44,612 nucleotides of DNA from Niabella drilacis (GTDB lineage: Bacteria > Bacteroidota > Bacteroidia > Chitinophagales > Chitinophagaceae). The notes under the pieces are model-generated. The model ran no database searches. It saw only the letters and a list, made by a program, of their open reading frames with translations, and was not told the DNA's origin. The DNA lies in assembly GCF_900101395.1 (NCBI RefSeq), contig NZ_FMZO01000029.1:1-44612 (forward strand), given 5' to 3'. Shown here piece after piece: positions 1,722 through 8,271 of this stretch. A program made the position numbers and the translations under genes. Numbering within the stretch: position 1 is the first letter of the stretch; each line of letters starts with the position of its first letter.

Positions 1722-1755
1722 AAAGCCATCGCTTAAAAACGGCGATGGCTTTTTT
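1722..1755 (+). terminator. Rho-independent terminator after the DUF3472 gene
   Basis: AAGCCATCGC (1723-1732) pairs with GCGATGGCTT (1742-1751) around an 8-base loop and runs into a T tract. It lies 20 bases after the stop of the DUF3472 gene and separates it from the SAM riboswitch locus. Confidence 0.85.
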
Positions 1756-1791
1756 AAAAAACGAATAGTCTACCTGTTTTGTAGAAATTTA

Positions 1792-1823
1792 TTTTGCTGC
1801 TAATGGTTTAGCTACTACCTTTG
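1792..1823 (+). promoter_or_regulatory. Bacteroidota-type promoter for the riboswitch locus
   Basis: A perfect match to the Bacteroidota -7 element TAnnTTTG (TACCTTTG, 1816-1823) lies 19 bases after a TTTTG (-33 element, TTG at 1794-1796). Transcription would begin around 1827-1832, just before the riboswitch P1 stem. The spacing fits the known consensus for this phylum. Confidence 0.7.
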
Positions 1824-1840: not shown

Positions 1841-1939
1841 AACTTATCAAGAAAGACTGAGGGAAATGGCCCTGGGACGTCTTAGCAACCACCAGCATAG
1901 GAGCGGTGCTACATCCATCCAAAAAAGGAAAGATAAGTG
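1841..1939 (+). promoter_or_regulatory. SAM-I (S-box) riboswitch
   Basis: The P1 stem is ACTTATC (1842-1848) with GATAAGT (1932-1938). Inside are the S-box hallmarks in order: AAGAAAGACTGAGGGA, TGGCCCTGGGACGTCTTAGC (P2, AAGAC pairing with GTCTT), the invariant GCAACC, a P3 hairpin AGCAT...GGTGCTA, and a final TCC/GGA stem before the closing GATAAG. S-box RNAs bind S-adenosylmethionine and usually lower expression of sulfur-amino-acid genes when SAM is high. No textbook terminator follows immediately. Instead there is a long leader with a Met/Cys-rich small ORF and, further on, a SusC-type receptor, so the output may be attenuation or translational control rather than simple termination. Confidence 0.9.
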
Positions 1940-2015
1940 GTCGTCAATGTTTCTGCATTGTCTTTATCCACGATTTTCTTTCCATAACTAATTTTTTAAA
2001 CGGCAATTTTTGAAC

Positions 2016-2141
2016 ATGAACACAAAAATGCAATCGTCGGGGTATGGCCATGCGTCTCCCAATTGCCGGCAGAAGAACTGTCGTAACATACAAACAGGGC
2101 AACCCGCTGCCATGATGATGGCATGTTGTTGCTGCTGCTGA
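2016..2141 (+). CDS. Leader peptide ending Met-Met-Met-Ala-Cys5
   Basis: A 41-codon ORF starting ATG AAC ACA and ending MMMACCCCC followed by TGA (ATG codons at 2112, 2115, 2118; Cys codons 2124-2138). Two more Cys lie mid-peptide in NCRQKNCR. It sits between the SAM riboswitch and the SusC gene, about 100 bases before the SusC start. A run of codons for the very amino acids whose metabolism the riboswitch senses is the mark of an attenuator leader peptide. Polycysteine leader ORFs acting as Cys-responsive attenuators are known in mycobacteria. A small secreted or metal-binding peptide is less likely because there is no signal sequence. Expression is inferred. Confidence 0.6.
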   Translation: MNTKMQSSGYGHASPNCRQKNCRNIQTGQPAAMMMACCCCC

Positions 2142-2173: not shown

Positions 2174-2211
2174 ACGGCCGGGAGCCGGAGGACCCCCTAT
2201 GCCCCGGCCGT
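2174..2211 (+). promoter_or_regulatory. GC-rich hairpin in the leader of the SusC gene
   Basis: ACGGCCGGG (2174-2182) pairs perfectly with CCCGGCCGT (2203-2211) over a 20-base loop. It lies 33 bases after the leader-peptide stop and 33 bases before the SusC start. No T tract follows, so it is not a classical terminator. It could block or release translation or RNA decay depending on ribosome position in the leader ORF. Confidence 0.5.
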
Positions 2212-2244: not shown

Positions 2245-5200
2245 ATGAACCAATTTCTAAGACAGATGATTTATGCAGTACTGCTTCTTTTCCCGTTATT
2301 GGGTACTGCACAATCGGCAACCATTACGGGAAGGGTACAGGAACAACTGTCCGGCAGCCCTTTGGCAGGGGTAACGGTAGAGGTTTCAGGAACCAACCGC
2401 CGCACGCTTACCGACGAACAGGGACGTTTTTCGATAGCGGCCGGACCGCATGCGATCCTGCTATTTTCTTATGTGGGATATGCCAACCGCCAGGTAAATA
2501 CCGATACCATACAGGGGAACCTGCTGGTACCGCTGCAAAGCTCCAATACAGCGCTTGATGAAGTAGTGGTAACCGCGCTGGGTGTAACCAAAGCAAAAAA
2601 ATCCCTGGGATATGCCACACAGGAGTTAAAGGCAAAGGATATTTCCGAGGCAAAAGAAACCAATATTGTAAATGCCCTGGCGGGAAAGATCGCCGGGGTA
2701 CGTATTACCAATACGCAAGGCGATATGGGATCCTCGCGGATCGTGATACGGGGTGAAACCTCTATCGCCGGGAATAACCAGCCGCTTTTTGTAGTGGACG
2801 GGATCCCGGTAGATAACTCACAGCTGGGTGCCGGAGGCTCGCGGGATTTCCGCAATGCGATTGCGGATCTGAACCCGGAAGATATTGAGACCATCAGCGT
2901 ACTGAAGGGGCCCAATGCCGCGGCGCTTTATGGTTCGCGCGCAGCACAGGGCGTGATATTGATCAAAACAAAAACCGGCCGGGGTAAAAAAGGGTTGGGG
3001 ATTACCTTAAATTCCAACGTGAATATTGCCAGCCTGCTGATCCTGCCGGAGTATCAGAATGTTTTCGGACAGGGCTCCGAAGCTAAGTTCAGCTATGTGG
3101 ATGGCAAGGGGAGCGGGGATAATGATGGAGTGGATGAAAGCTGGGGCCCAAAGATGGATGGACGGCTCATTCCCCAGTTCTATTCCAATGGAGAGCCGGT
3201 ACCCTTTGTACCGCATCCCAACAATGTGCGCGACTATTTCCGGAACGGTGTTACCTATAGTAACGGTATCGCCCTGGCAAATGCCGGAGATAACTATGAC
3301 TACCGTATTTCTTATAACAACGAAAAGCAGCTGGGGGTGGTGCCCAATAGTGAAGCCAGGAAAAACAACCTGTCTTTTAATGCCAGCTACAATGTAACAC
3401 CCAAATTAAAAGTAGGCGTAAATGCCAATTATATTGTGAATAACGCGCCCAACCTGCCGGGGGCCGGTGGTAAACGGGCTACCAGTACCATGCTTCAGTT
3501 TACCTGGTTTGGCCGGCAGGTAGATATCGGCCGGCTAAAGAACTATAAGGACGCCAACGGCAACGGCATCAACTGGAACAACAGTTATTACAGCAACCCG
3601 TACTGGATCGCCTATGAGAACACGGTAAGCCAGCGGCGCAACCGGATCATCGGGAACGTGAATGTCAACTATGCCATTCTCGACGGACTGAGCGCCAACT
3701 TCCGTACCGGTACCGATTATTATAACGACCGCCGTAAACTCCGGGTGGCCTATGGTACCAACGGTACACCTTTTGGCTCTTACGAAGAAGATGCGTATGG
3801 AGTAAATGAAAATAATACAGAGGCCACGCTCCGTTATAATAAAAACATCAACAGCAATTTTAGCCTTGATGCCCTGGGTGGATGGAACCTGCGTACAAAG
3901 ATCTATGAGGAAAATATACAACAGGCGCCCCGCCTGGCAGTGCCGGATGTATATACCCTGGCCAATTCAAGGGATCCGCTGGTATCCAATAATTTTTATT
4001 CCAGGTCAAAGATCTATAGTGCCTTTGCTTCGGCGCAGGTAGGATATAAGAATATTGCCTTTATTAACTTAACCGCCCGTAACGACTGGTCTTCCTCGCT
4101 GCCGGAACAGAACCTGTCCTATTTTTATCCTTCGGTAAATGCCAGCCTGATCCTGTCTGATGCGTTGAACATAAGCAGCAATACGCTGAATTTTCTGAAA
4201 CTGAGAGGCGGATGGTCAAAAGTGGGCAGCTCCGCAGACCCCTACCAGCTGATCAATATCTTTAATTTTAACGCACCATTCCTGGGCAATCCGCAGCTGA
4301 TCACTTCAACAATTGATCTGAACCCTGAGCTCAGATCGGAAACAACCAATTCGGCAGAGGCCGGGTTGGAAGCGGCGTTCTTTAACAACCGGGTACGGCT
4401 GGATCTGAGTGTATACAATACCAATAGCATTGACCAGATCTTAAAAGTGGATGTAACGGCCGCAACCGGCTATAATCAAAAACTGATGAATGCCGGTAAG
4501 ATCAACAATAAAGGCATTGAAGTGCAGCTGGGCCTGATCCCTGTAAAGGGCAGTGATTTTCAATGGAACGTAGACCTGAATTATGCGGCCAACCGGAGCC
4601 GTGTACGGATACTGGATTATGAACAACGGCTGCAGAATTATGTGCTGGGGTCTTACCGCAGCGTACAGGTGCTTGCTTCTGTAGGAAAACCCTATGGTAC
4701 CCTGTTTGGAAATGCATACCTGCGGGATGCACAGGGCAATATTGTTGTAAACAACAGCGGTATTCCGCTGGCGGACCCCAACAAGAAAGTACTGGGTAAA
4801 TTTACGCCGGACTGGGTGGGCGGTATCAGCAACAGTCTTACCTATAAGAATTTCAGTTTTTCCTTCCTGGTAGATGCCAGCATCGGCGGATCCCTGTTTG
4901 CCGGCACCAACTCCACCGGCAGCTATACCGGTGTATTGGCGCTTACCCTTCCGGGCCGGGATGCAGAGCTCGGCGGGCTTAGTTATTACTATCCCGATAA
5001 TAAAAAGATCAATGGTACCAGGGCCGGCACCAGCGGCCCCAACGGGGAAACCGTGTATGATGATGGTATGATCTTTAACGGGGTTACCGCCGGTGGTCAG
5101 GAGAATACCACCATTATCCCGGCCTCCCAGTATTACAAAGCCGCCCGGAGCATTGAAGAGGCATATGTATACGATGCCTCCTATGTAAAGTTAAGAGAAG

Positions 5201-5418
5201 TGAAGCTGGGGTATACCCTGCCACAGCAGTGGATCCGGAAGATCGGTTTTCAGGGGGCTTCCTTTTCGGTAGTGGGCCGTAACCTTTGGATCATTCATAA
5301 AAAAGTACCCAATATCGATCCGGAAGTGGCTTTCAGCACCGGCAATGCGCAGGGACTGGAAGACCTGACGCTTCCAACCGTCCGGAACATCGGATTCAAC
5401 CTGAACCTTAAATTTTAA
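2245..5418 (+). CDS. SusC/RagA-type TonB-dependent outer-membrane receptor
   Basis: At 1057 residues this is a full-length SusC-type protein. Order: signal peptide (1 to about 23), carboxypeptidase-D regulatory-like beta domain (about 25-105, ITGRVQEQLSGSPLAGVTV), TonB-box region (LDEVVVTALGV), plug domain (about 120-245, with LFVVDGIPVDNS and the motif LKGPNAAALYGSRAAQGVI), then the 22-strand barrel ending NIGFNLNLKF. It would import a large substrate across the outer membrane, powered by TonB-ExbBD, together with the SusD-type lipoprotein that starts 11 bases after its stop. The upstream SAM riboswitch and Met/Cys-rich leader suggest that the substrate supplies sulfur amino acids, for example peptides or a sulfur compound; that is inference. 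No glycoside hydrolase lies in this operon. Confidence 0.93.
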   Translation: MNQFLRQMIYAVLLLFPLLGTAQSATITGRVQEQLSGSPLAGVTVEVSGTNRRTLTDEQGRFSIAAGPHAILLFSYVGYANRQVNTDTIQGNLLVPLQSSNTALDEVVVTALGVTKAKKSLGYATQELKAKDISEAKETNIVNALAGKIAGVRITNTQGDMGSSRIVIRGETSIAGNNQPLFVVDGIPVDNSQLGAGGSRDFRNAIADLNPEDIETISVLKGPNAAALYGSRAAQGVILIKTKTGRGKKGLGITLNSNVNIASLLILPEYQNVFGQGSEAKFSYVDGKGSGDNDGVDESWGPKMDGRLIPQFYSNGEPVPFVPHPNNVRDYFRNGVTYSNGIALANAGDNYDYRISYNNEKQLGVVPNSEARKNNLSFNASYNVTPKLKVGVNANYIVNNAPNLPGAGGKRATSTMLQFTWFGRQVDIGRLKNYKDANGNGINWNNSYYSNPYWIAYENTVSQRRNRIIGNVNVNYAILDGLSANFRTGTDYYNDRRKLRVAYGTNGTPFGSYEEDAYGVNENNTEATLRYNKNINSNFSLDALGGWNLRTKIYEENIQQAPRLAVPDVYTLANSRDPLVSNNFYSRSKIYSAFASAQVGYKNIAFINLTARNDWSSSLPEQNLSYFYPSVNASLILSDALNISSNTLNFLKLRGGWSKVGSSADPYQLINIFNFNAPFLGNPQLITSTIDLNPELRSETTNSAEAGLEAAFFNNRVRLDLSVYNTNSIDQILKVDVTAATGYNQKLMNAGKINNKGIEVQLGLIPVKGSDFQWNVDLNYAANRSRVRILDYEQRLQNYVLGSYRSVQVLASVGKPYGTLFGNAYLRDAQGNIVVNNSGIPLADPNKKVLGKFTPDWVGGISNSLTYKNFSFSFLVDASIGGSLFAGTNSTGSYTGVLALTLPGRDAELGGLSYYYPDNKKINGTRAGTSGPNGETVYDDGMIFNGVTAGGQENTTIIPASQYYKAARSIEEAYVYDASYVKLREVKLGYTLPQQWIRKIGFQGASFSVVGRNLWIIHKKVPNIDPEVAFSTGNAQGLEDLTLPTVRNIGFNLNLKF

Positions 5419-5429
5419 AACCGGCAGCT

Positions 5430-6872
5430 ATGTTTAAGAATATCATTACACTATTTATTATTTTAATTACGCTTTTCGTTACCGCCTGCAAAAAGAACCT
5501 GGCGGAGATCAACCGGAACCCCAATGCAGTGGAGGATCCGCAGCCGGATTATCTTTTAACGGCGGCAGAAAAAACGGCTGCGGATAATTACTGGGGTGCC
5601 GATAATAATTTTAATTCCAGTTTGCTGCTCATCCAGCACTGGGCCAAGATCCAGTATACAGAACCCGACCGGTATATCTTCAGTAACAGCAGCTTTACCT
5701 CACTGTGGAACACCGGCTATGCGCAGGTAATCACCAACCTCAATACGATTATCCGGTTCCCTGACGAAAAAGCCAATAAGAATTATAAGGCGGTAGCAAC
5801 GATTTTGAGGTCCTGGACCTTTCAGCTGCTGACCGATGCGTATGGAGCTATTCCCTATAAGGAGTCCGGAAAAATAAAGGAAACCCTTACCCCGGTATAT
5901 GATTCGCAAAAGGAGGTATACTTTGGGTTGCTGGATGAGCTAAAAACCGCTGCAGATGCATTGGATCCCGCTGCCGGCAGCATTTCCGGGGATGTTTTGT
6001 TTGGCGGTAGCCTGGACGGCTGGAAAAAATTTGCGCGGGCGCTCCGGTTGCGCATCGCCCTGCGTATTGCCGACCGGGAACCGGAAAAAGCCCGGGAAGT
6101 GATCAGTGAAGTAACGGCCAGTCTCTCTCTGCTGATCGCCGGTAACGGGGAAGCGGCCAGATTGGTCTATGATAAACCTCCGTTGCAAAACCCCATGGCC
6201 GCCTGGTTTTCAACCCGGGACGATTACCGGGTGGGCAAAACCATTATCGATAAATTATATGCGCTGAACGATCCCCGGCTGGCGGTATTTGCTGATAAAC
6301 CTGCCGATCTTTCGGTTACCAATTACGTAGGTGTGCCCAGCGGGCTCACCAATAGTGACGCCAACAACCTGGGATTTTCAAAAACATCAAAACCGGATTC
6401 GGTATTTTTCCGCTCGGATGCCAATCCTGCCATGATCCTGAGTTATCCGGAAGTGCTGTTTAACCTGGCTGAGGCTGCTGCGCGGGGATTGTATAACGGT
6501 AACGCTGCAGACCTGTACAAACAGGCGGTAACCGCTTCCTTGCAGCAATACCAGATCGCCGATAATACGGTGATCAGTACATACCTCAATCAGCCTGCGG
6601 TGGCCTACAACCCCGCAAACTATAAAAAGTCCATTGGCGAGCAAAAATGGATCGCACTTTATGGACAGGGACTGGAAGCTTTTGCAGAGTGGCGCCGGCT
6701 GGATTATCCGCAACTGGCACCGGGAGCATCTGGGGTACTGGATGGAAAGATACCGGTGCGGTTTATTTATCCCGGCACGGAGCAATCGCTCAATGGCGCT
6801 AATTATAAAGCCGCAGTGGCGGCCCAGGGTACAGATAACCTGCTTACAAAGTTGTGGTTTGATGTAAACTGA
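5430..6872 (+). CDS. SusD/RagB-type lipoprotein (SusD-like_2 class)
   Basis: This 480-residue lipoprotein has a type II signal (MFKNIITLF...FVTAC, lipobox Cys at about residue 20) and continues with the NRNPNAVEDPQPDYLL start typical of the SusD-like_2 family, which is distinct from the glycan-type SusD fold variants. Near the C-terminus, IGEQKWIALYGQGLEAFAEWRRL is a conserved feature of the class. It would cap the SusC-type barrel and capture the substrate at the cell surface. It is co-transcribed with the receptor (11-base gap). Members of this class often partner receptors for non-polysaccharide substrates, in keeping with the sulfur-linked regulation seen upstream. Confidence 0.9.
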   Translation: MFKNIITLFIILITLFVTACKKNLAEINRNPNAVEDPQPDYLLTAAEKTAADNYWGADNNFNSSLLLIQHWAKIQYTEPDRYIFSNSSFTSLWNTGYAQVITNLNTIIRFPDEKANKNYKAVATILRSWTFQLLTDAYGAIPYKESGKIKETLTPVYDSQKEVYFGLLDELKTAADALDPAAGSISGDVLFGGSLDGWKKFARALRLRIALRIADREPEKAREVISEVTASLSLLIAGNGEAARLVYDKPPLQNPMAAWFSTRDDYRVGKTIIDKLYALNDPRLAVFADKPADLSVTNYVGVPSGLTNSDANNLGFSKTSKPDSVFFRSDANPAMILSYPEVLFNLAEAAARGLYNGNAADLYKQAVTASLQQYQIADNTVISTYLNQPAVAYNPANYKKSIGEQKWIALYGQGLEAFAEWRRLDYPQLAPGASGVLDGKIPVRFIYPGTEQSLNGANYKAAVAAQGTDNLLTKLWFDVN

Positions 6873-7026: not shown

Positions 7027-8271
7027 ATGCATAAAATATACCGATACACCCTTCTCCTATTCATTCTGGCGGCACCGGTGTCAAGCCAGGCTCAAGGGAT
7101 AAAGCCTGGCATCTGGCAGGGGGTACTACAGCGACCGGATGGGCAAAAGATCATCTTTAATTTTGAATCGGCTACACTCAAAGGCAAGCCGGTGTGGTAT
7201 GTGATCAATGCGGGGGAACGCCTGCTGGTAGATGCCATCCGGCAGCGGGGCGATTCGCTCTGGATCCGGATGCCCTTTTTTGCCTCGGGTTTTGCATTGC
7301 AGGTGCAAAAGAACGGAAACCTGAAAGGCCTGTATATAAAAAATTATGGCGTACGGAAGGAGGAGATCCCGTTTTACGCCGCGCACAATGTAACCGAGCG
7401 GTATCCCCGCACCCAACCGCCGGCGGCGGATATCAGCGGGCGATGGGCGGCAACCTTCAATTCCGGCAATGGAAAGACCCAGCAGGCCATCGGTGAATTT
7501 GTGCAGGAAGCTGGTGGCCGGGTCACCGGCACCTTTCTCACTCCTTCGGGAGACTACCGTTACCTGGAAGGATCCGTTAGCGGTGATTCTTTACACCTTT
7601 CCGGCTTTGACGGCGGACATGCATTTGTGTTCACGGCATTATTGAATGATAAAGACAGCATCAGCAAAGCAGCGGTGTACTCCGGGCTAAAAGCCACACA
7701 AAGCTGGACAGCCCGGCGAAACGATACGGTGCAGCTTCCGGACGAAAATACCTATACCAAATTAAGGGAAGGCGAGAGCCGGCTGAATTTCCGGTTCCGG
7801 TCCACCTCCGGTGAATGGGTATCCATTGATGATCCCCGGTATAAAAATAAAGTGGTGATTGTACAGATCCTGGGCTCCTGGTGCCCCAATTGTATGGATG
7901 AAACCGCGTACCTGAGCGATTTTTATGCCCGTAATAAGGCCCGGGGAGTGGAGATCATCGGGCTGGCCTATGAGCGTACGGGGGATTTTGAAGCATCGCG
8001 CAAAGCACTCATCCCTTTTCAGAAGCGATACAATGTTAAATATCCGTTCCTGGTAACGGGCGTAGCGGTCTCCGACGAGCAACGGACAGAAAAAACGCTG
8101 CCCCAGCTGGAAAGTATTAAGGCTTTTCCTACCTCTATTGTGATTGATAAAAAAGGAAATGTGCGGAAAGTCCATTCCGGGTTTAACGGACCGGGCACCG
8201 GGAAACATTATGAGGAATTCAAAAAGGAATTCGAATCCTTTATCGATGGGCTGCTGAACGAACCGTCTTAA
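7027..8271 (+). CDS. TlpA-like secreted thioredoxin with N-terminal beta domains
   Basis: A 414-residue exported protein (signal peptide ending SSQAQG). Residues about 25-230 contain two similar beta-rich segments, GIWQGVLQRPDGQK and GRWAATFNSGNGK. The C-terminal third (about 255-410) is a TlpA/AhpC-type thioredoxin fold with the redox motif WCPNC at Cys286 and Cys289 and the cis-Pro region KAFPTSIVIDKKG. Periplasmic TlpA-like proteins reduce disulfides. It lies 154 bases after the SusD gene on the same strand, so it may belong to the SAM-controlled operon, where a disulfide reductase would suit import of cystine- or Cys-containing substrates; that role is inferred. Confidence 0.85.
   Translation: MHKIYRYTLLLFILAAPVSSQAQGIKPGIWQGVLQRPDGQKIIFNFESATLKGKPVWYVINAGERLLVDAIRQRGDSLWIRMPFFASGFALQVQKNGNLKGLYIKNYGVRKEEIPFYAAHNVTERYPRTQPPAADISGRWAATFNSGNGKTQQAIGEFVQEAGGRVTGTFLTPSGDYRYLEGSVSGDSLHLSGFDGGHAFVFTALLNDKDSISKAAVYSGLKATQSWTARRNDTVQLPDENTYTKLREGESRLNFRFRSTSGEWVSIDDPRYKNKVVIVQILGSWCPNCMDETAYLSDFYARNKARGVEIIGLAYERTGDFEASRKALIPFQKRYNVKYPFLVTGVAVSDEQRTEKTLPQLESIKAFPTSIVIDKKGNVRKVHSGFNGPGTGKHYEEFKKEFESFIDGLLNEPS

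Follow-up and report, generated by a model that had tools for sequence, protein, structure and literature searches.

A putative two-stage sulfur-responsive leader, a SAM-I riboswitch followed by a cysteine-codon ORF, upstream of a SusCD operon in Niabella

Polycysteine attenuators have been shown experimentally in mycobacteria. In Actinobacteria, short ORFs with consecutive Cys codons close to their end, and with sulfur genes next to them, were described upstream of the cys operon in Mycobacterium and Propionibacterium and upstream of cbs in Bifidobacterium (PMC1262725); the excerpt of that paper reports no conserved terminator hairpin, proposes Rho and mentions no riboswitch. Tandem Cys codons also occur in uORFC-8-2, a leader ORF before cysS in Rhodobacterales for which ribosome-mediated attenuation was proposed (PMC8632094); there the Cys codons usually occupy positions 14-15 inside a stem, a U-run terminator is present, and the excerpt again mentions no riboswitch. 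Leaders with two sensors are known from mgtCBR and mgtA of Salmonella, in which ATP or Mg2+ is sensed along with proline, the latter through codons, and two RNA gates in series, the tandem SAM and B12 riboswitches, precede metE of Bacillus clausii (both as excerpted from PMC3641672). In Bacteroidota, leader peptides are mentioned, in a general way only, for Flavobacterium psychrophilum and Bacteroides thetaiotaomicron, and the excerpt of PMC6429828 adds nothing on Cys leaders.

The locus described here lies in Niabella drilacis, within a stretch of 44,612 nucleotides that was analysed as a whole (the window). It resembles the actinobacterial leaders in its short ORF, its Cys run near the stop codon, the putative sulfur link of the adjacent genes and the lack of a conserved terminator hairpin, but it belongs to another phylum, precedes a probable importer (MetY or MetX in relatives) rather than biosynthesis genes, and carries a SAM-I riboswitch. 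With uORFC-8-2 it shares the tandem Cys codons, whereas the placement of these codons, the terminator and the target gene differ. Like the Salmonella leaders it would hold two sensors, one of them codon-based, yet in place of the ATP or Mg2+ and proline of a proteobacterium it pairs an aptamer of the curated SAM family with Cys codons, both belonging to sulfur metabolism; and like the B. clausii leader it would place serial gates, one of them SAM-sensing, before a sulfur gene, the second sensor being an aptamer there and a ribosome here. The components are of known kinds; their combination, and its place before SusCD or MetY in this phylum, was not found among the open-access matches listed, and neither was any other Cys leader or SAM-plus-leader design in Bacteroidota. 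The author of the sequence-only reading knew of no such dual control in the phylum. We propose, with a probability of roughly 0.7, that the SusC operon is governed by a two-stage sulfur-responsive leader, in which a SAM-I riboswitch is followed by a Cys-codon leader that derepresses SusCD.

The SusC leader and its conservation in the genus

Table 1. Features of the SusC leader and operon in the window
Feature	Coordinates	Strand	Details
Terminator-like hairpin of the preceding DUF3472 gene	1725..1755	+	8-bp stem, 9-nt loop, T run; read from the sequence
Palindromic operator candidate, AGTCTAC-N7-GTAGA	1767..1785	+	8/8 genus loci; 4 matches in own genome
Promoter candidate	1793..1823	+	TTTG 1793-1796, 19 nt, TACCTTTG 1816-1823
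SAM-I riboswitch aptamer (RF00162)	1841..1939	+	68.6 bits (cutoff 44.4), E 4.8e-14
Possible expression platform	1937..1983	+	Hairpin 1937-1971, then GATTTTCTTTCC; RNAalifold, 8 sequences
Leader ORF	2016..2141	+	41 codons ending MMMA-CCCCC-stop; translation, shuffles, relatives
Five in-frame Cys codons, TGT TGT TGC TGC TGC	2124..2138	+	Abut stop codon TGA
Hairpin region	2174..2211	+	Long stem 2175-2182/2203-2210 (this genome), or small hairpins 2175-2187 and 2189-2198
SusC/RagA TonB-linked outer membrane protein	2245..5418	+	TIGR04056, 624.6 bits (cutoff 368.25)
SusD-like lipoprotein	5430..6872	+	PF12771
Thioredoxin/TlpA-like protein, possibly third operon gene	7027..8271	+	PF08534/PF00578; ResA-like below cutoff

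The presence of a 41-aa, Cys-ending ORF between the SAM-I riboswitch and the SusC/SusD operon (Table 1) was confirmed: the frame with three Met and five terminal Cys codons behind a SAM riboswitch, as first read from the letters, was recovered both by translation (MNTKMQSSGYGHASPNCRQKNCRNIQTGQPAAMMMACCCCC*) and by the covariance model. The ORF starts 76 bases past the end of the riboswitch, and the SusC gene follows 103 bases past its own end. The RF00162 match exceeded the gathering score, and SAM binding is predicted from the covariance model, while the receptor downstream belongs to the SusC/RagA family, scoring above the TIGR04056 cutoff and having a SusD neighbour. A permissive Rfam search of 1700-2300 returned the SAM match and three others far under their cutoffs, leaving SAM as the sole known RNA family above cutoff in that interval and none behind the leader ORF; no Pfam family was found for the leader peptide. 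None of 4000 dinucleotide shuffles of 1940-2244 yielded an ATG ORF with at least four Cys in its last eight residues (five are observed), and 17 of the 4000 reached three. Among the 587 ATG ORFs of 7-80 aa on both strands of the window, four have at least three Cys in their last eight residues, and the leader ORF is the only one that ends in a Cys run longer than two.

Upstream, a terminator-like hairpin, which the terminator scan missed on account of its loop limit of 8, closes the DUF3472 gene, a sign that the SusC leader may be transcribed as a unit of its own. It would be transcribed from the promoter candidate, which we take to follow the Bacteroidota promoter consensus. The palindrome pattern had four matches in the 6.1-Mb genome (two for a reversed control pattern), and the three matches outside the SusC operon adjoin sulfate-assimilation genes: two (L064, positions 1501 and 1667) precede a TonB-dependent receptor, beside a TauE/SafE protein with a CysG-like N-terminus, and one (L066, position 1501) precedes a uroporphyrinogen-III methyltransferase and a flavodoxin, beside CysN. 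Since the palindrome stands at sulfur genes, a sulfur regulator seems to act on the SusC operon too. The site common to the SusC operon and the sulfate-assimilation and siroheme genes is a candidate for the binding site of some such regulator. A short ORF, MANDKEKGAPAFMKITTSYYCS, was also seen behind a palindrome upstream of a 61% SusC orthologue (L041), in a genome whose sole listed SAM riboswitch stands elsewhere.

As to the first gate, TCTTTCC (1977-1983) in the possible expression platform is able to pair with GGAAAGA (1927-1933) of the aptamer, a pairing that by RNAalifold is kept in 8/8 sequences with one G-U and no two-sided change, and that would compete with the aptamer. The single-strand fold z of the platform region was -1.58, and scans returned no stage-1 terminator in the window or in 7/8 genus loci. 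A strong stem with a T run does stand behind the riboswitch in seven MetY/MetX relatives (L164, L030, L028, L202, L009, L017 and L159).

The SusC protein was searched against 59 genomes, 17 of them of the same genus as the window, and an orthologue of 83-100% identity was found in 8 of these 17, the own genome counted; the best matches in other genera reached at most 61%. A further search returned a SusC of Niastella with 70% identity over the best segment, without a SAM riboswitch. All eight genus loci with a SusC orthologue carry the palindrome, the promoter region, the riboswitch (scored by the covariance model in four and placed by alignment only in the other four) and the Cys-ending ORF. 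Thus, relatives that keep the riboswitch and the SusC gene have not lost the frame, and its tail does not vary freely, being CCCCC in two genomes, CCCC in three, CCCC-RS in one and CCC in two, with an in-frame 3-base indel inside the run. The Met3 run was found in 2/8 genomes and was rejected as a conserved part of the signal; since it is not conserved, Cys is the likely signal of the leader. The proposal of a second, ribosome-based sensor of Met and Cys supply, with a conserved MMM/CCCC tail, is therefore supported in its Cys half (three to five Cys in 8/8) and weakened in its Met half.

The start block MNTKMQ is present in 7/8 loci. L040 has ATA in place of the first ATG, and through the loss of one base it has acquired another ATG that is in frame with the Cys run; its assembly is fragmented and 90% complete, such that a sequence error is possible. 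Across the 35-codon body of the peptide in six close genomes, differences at codon positions 1/2/3 numbered 99/94/112 (1335/713/6383 for SusC), and this near-even distribution speaks for a body without clear protein-level constraint. Synonymous changes, which had been expected to dominate, do so within the Cys codons, whose number still ranges from three to five, and not in the body. A kept start block and Cys tail with an almost neutrally drifting body is the pattern predicted for a codon sensor rather than for a functional small protein, though as a substitution pattern it is no proof that the leader is translated.

RNA behind the leader and the proposed mechanism

The hairpins between the leader stop and the SusC start fold more stably than shuffles (z -2.75), and both small hairpins show two-sided changes among the genus loci, whereas one arm of the long hairpin is absent in L035 and L038. 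In the named structure, which includes the helix between Cys run and SusC start, 91.3% of cells were paired (34-55% in slid controls); its pair types were not above those of shuffles, 398/500 of which scored as high. By scan, no U-tract terminator was present in 2142-2245 of the window and no U run follows the hairpins; the only match on the + strand, 2108-2123, lies inside the ORF. For the second switch of the window, translational control and Rho are both candidates, and classical attenuation is plausible in some relatives, to judge from their hairpins.

We propose the following course of events. When SAM is bound, the SAM-I riboswitch would stop transcription before the ORF, as expected from the family and from a weak platform fold. 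Transcription that proceeds past the riboswitch would allow the 41-codon leader to be translated, and when charged tRNA-Cys is scarce the ribosome would stall on the Cys run. The stalled ribosome would either keep the RNA at 2174-2247 (the hairpins, or the pairing with the start codon) unfolded or block Rho, and SusCD would be made when Cys is short; with plentiful Cys the ribosome would leave, and the downstream RNA would repress. That the stalled ribosome acts as an activator we infer by analogy with described codon leaders.

Cysteine-ending leaders beyond the genus

We examined the upstream regions of the best 80 of 397 SusC orthologues, which, like the MetY loci considered below, are related to one another, so that none of these counts are independent. 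An upstream ATG ORF with at least two Cys in its last eight residues was present in 39/80 (shuffle mean 4.3, maximum 8 in 40 sets; reverse strand 12/80), and one with at least three in 13/80 (0.3 in shuffles; 0/80 on the reverse strand). When regions were matched for length (at least 300 bases), 35/69 SusC upstream regions had such an ORF, as compared to 14/169 other upstream regions of the same loci. Among these best 80, ORFs with at least two Cys occurred in Niabella (3/3), Pedobacter (8/13), Flavobacterium (15/31), Chitinophaga (3/6), Sphingobacterium (0/4), Bacteroides (1/2), further Flavobacteriaceae (2/2) and other or metagenome-assembled genomes (7/19), while the SAM riboswitch, as judged by the covariance model, was present in 15 of the 80, namely 3 Niabella and 12 Pedobacter loci.

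Eleven of the 12 riboswitch-bearing Pedobacter loci have an ATG leader with Cys as its last or last-but-one residue that is dissimilar to the window ORF; in the twelfth, L081, no Cys-ending ORF was found. The leader ends read TAYCC, RQSC, RQPC, CFC, RLYCC, FGHC, MCCD, HRCCR, MCCCCS (twice) and MRCC, with at least two Cys in 8/11, the three with a single Cys being weak evidence alone. A scan run without shuffle control found a terminator-like site behind the leader in 5/11 Pedobacter loci versus 0/8 loci of the Niabella genus. In L079 and L080 a hairpin with GTTTTTG behind it takes up the Cys and stop codons in its 5' arm, an arrangement in which a stalled ribosome would prevent the hairpin before CGTTTTTG from forming.

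Flavobacterium and two other Flavobacteriaceae have a leader of 7-8 aa, mostly MKKRMCCR, without a riboswitch. The MK[KR]RM frame is present in 33/33 Flavobacterium-type loci, 27 of which have at least one Cys and 6 none. In Flavobacterium, a strongly conserved element stands behind the MKKRM leader, ~120-150 bases before susC, and comprises a hairpin CCATTTCTG..CAGAAATGG and AAGCTTAAAGAAATTG; the leader region of one such locus (L101) gave sub-cutoff Rfam matches only. In L128, a 257-aa gene stands ahead of SusC, and an ORF ending MRMCCCMSC was seen upstream of that gene, as if the leader headed a longer operon.

Leaders of the same kind recur behind SAM riboswitches elsewhere in the family. 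We examined 92 such loci (32, and 60 of the next 68, with G128, G148, G141, G283, G152, G142, G073 and G041 passed over) for an ATG ORF with at least three Cys in its last 12 residues between riboswitch and gene. Such a Met/Cys-cluster leader was found in 14/23 MetY loci, 0/36 MetB-type, 0/8 Hom and 5/25 others; including L164, whose leader was missed by the filter and which was first classed among the others, the MetY tally is 15/24, versus 0/44 for MetB and Hom, and nine of the 24 MetY loci lack a leader. The group of others also holds several MetB-type and MetX-like loci. Controls for the 23 MetY loci gave a mean of 0.25 (maximum 3) in shuffles and 3 on the reverse strand. Long 5' regions are where these leaders are found: one was present in 14/15 MetY loci whose gene starts more than 400 bases behind the start of the stretch taken at that locus, and in 0/8 below that distance. 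The five other leaders belong to the window, a MetX locus (L159), an OsmC-like locus (L209) and L206 and L213; inspected by eye, one of six MetX-like loci had a leader (L022, L029, L159, L177, L194 and L211). MetY and MetX behind like leaders fit a match to the sulfur amino acids. In L206 and L213, two copies of one arrangement, the leader behind the SAM riboswitch has ACCCCN as its last residues and stands ~280 bases upstream of a gene, which in L206 has no Pfam match.

The genome of the window itself has a MetY leader, MKQNSTKFVVCMNESATYKISCITPVMCCCICCMP, before O-acetylhomoserine sulfhydrylase; at this locus (L001; G000:C29, ~269.4-269.8 kb) a 35-aa leader whose last residues are VMCCCICCMP stands behind the SAM riboswitch. 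This genome has two further short ATG ORFs with CCCC at their end, 88 bases before a 155-aa ORF (L071, C29:391772) and 362 bases before a 136-aa ORF (L073, C30:310715).

In 14/15 MetY leaders (L001, L006, L008, L009, L011, L012, L017, L028, L030, L164, L165, L191, L202 and L208) an ATG codon immediately behind the Cys run opens a hairpin, as compared to 144/3000 shuffles. Its arms are ATGCC/GGCAT in nine and compensated to ATGGC/GCCAT, ATGTGC/GCACAT or ATGTG/CGCAT elsewhere, and this hairpin may explain the recurring MP after Cys. A terminator-like site follows the leader in 7/15 (33/750 shuffles). Palindromes similar to that of the SusC operon (at most two mismatches; 11/910 in the shuffle control) lie between riboswitch and leader in five MetY loci (L006, L009, L028, L155 and L208) and in MetX locus L159, and also occur in L173 and L187, which lack a leader. 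Those of the six leader-bearing loci overlap promoter-like sequence, and because this sequence stands between riboswitch and leader, some MetY leaders may be transcribed from a promoter of their own, bypassing the riboswitch. L202 has a like palindrome at this place, with three mismatches.

The leader elements and their order are conserved in the genus and recur before sulfur genes, and from these comparisons the finding, which extends further than a single locus, is most aptly called a SAM riboswitch with a cysteine-codon leader placed in series behind it. We lean slightly towards a Bacteroidota-wide gate with two checkpoints, a SAM-I riboswitch and then stalling on Cys (or Cys and Met) codons, often with a shared sulfur operator, which would stand at peptide-importer SusCD, MetY, some MetX, OsmC-type and other genes and integrate, one after the other, the levels of SAM and charged tRNA-Cys; its second gate would be an intrinsic terminator in some loci and of another kind elsewhere, as in the window.

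Alternative readings and function of the operon

The Cys-rich nascent peptide might itself be the sensor, for instance of metal or redox state, and arrest the ribosome, in which case charged tRNA-Cys would not be the signal. Cys clusters that vary in order could act as metal ligands, a thioredoxin-like gene stands behind SusD, and a Cu-sensing uORF, CruR of Bordetella, precedes a TonB-dependent receptor (excerpt of PMC9426467). In the leaders inspected, however, the tails, with one to six or seven Cys at differing spacing, share no CXXC spacing or arrest motif, and their occurrence together with the SAM riboswitch, MetY, MetX and sulfate assimilation speaks for sulfur amino acids; we regard a nascent-peptide sensor as unlikely.

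A somewhat less probable alternative is that the run is conserved as RNA, TGTTGTTGC serving as a pairing arm and the ORF being incidental. TGTTGTTGC is present in 7/8 genus genomes, two helices between Cys run and SusC start keep 92.5% and 83.3% of cells paired, and in L036-L038 the pairing with the SusC start reaches -11.5 to -12.0 kcal/mol, with 0.3-4.7% of shuffles as good. In the window the pairing is of borderline quality, and L034, L035, L039 and L040 pair poorly, 21-62% of their shuffles doing equally well; a general rule by which the Cys run sequesters the SusC start is thus unsupported, support being absent in 4/8 genomes. Moreover, Pedobacter and MetY leaders encode the Cys tail by other nucleotide orders, in ATG frames.

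Very improbable, in our view, is a leader that merely boosts SusC translation by reinitiation or insulates the riboswitch, with amino-acid identity irrelevant: a reinitiation role has been proposed for leader genes (excerpt of PMC4833913) and the Flavobacterium-type leaders vary at their Cys positions, but the recurrence of the Cys tail in Niabella, Pedobacter and MetY leaders over controls would be left unexplained. A functionless chance ORF, to which the drifting middle of the peptide would be congenial, is scarcely credible given the shuffles, its retention in all eight relatives and its recurrence in other genera and before other genes.

Within the two-stage leader that we favour, the regulated genes would be SusCD and possibly the thioredoxin-like gene, and the operon would be linked to sulfur through the shared palindrome. 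The best-scoring solved relative of SusC is BT_2264 (PDB 5fq6; E 3.9e-127), of the Bacteroides BT_2263/BT_2264 SusCD pair, a likeness that rests on the SusC sequence; a peptide complex of BT_2264 is mentioned in the excerpt of PMC7782687. By this homology the SusCD pair is a probable oligopeptide importer, and a peptide importer is plausible as a source of sulfur amino acids.

If the proposed reading is true, a large phylum reads SAM and cysteine serially within one leader. SusCD import would gain a role tied to sulfur sensing, and the position of a SAM riboswitch before a SusC gene would be explained. The locus would also offer a test bed for repression by a codon leader without an intrinsic terminator.
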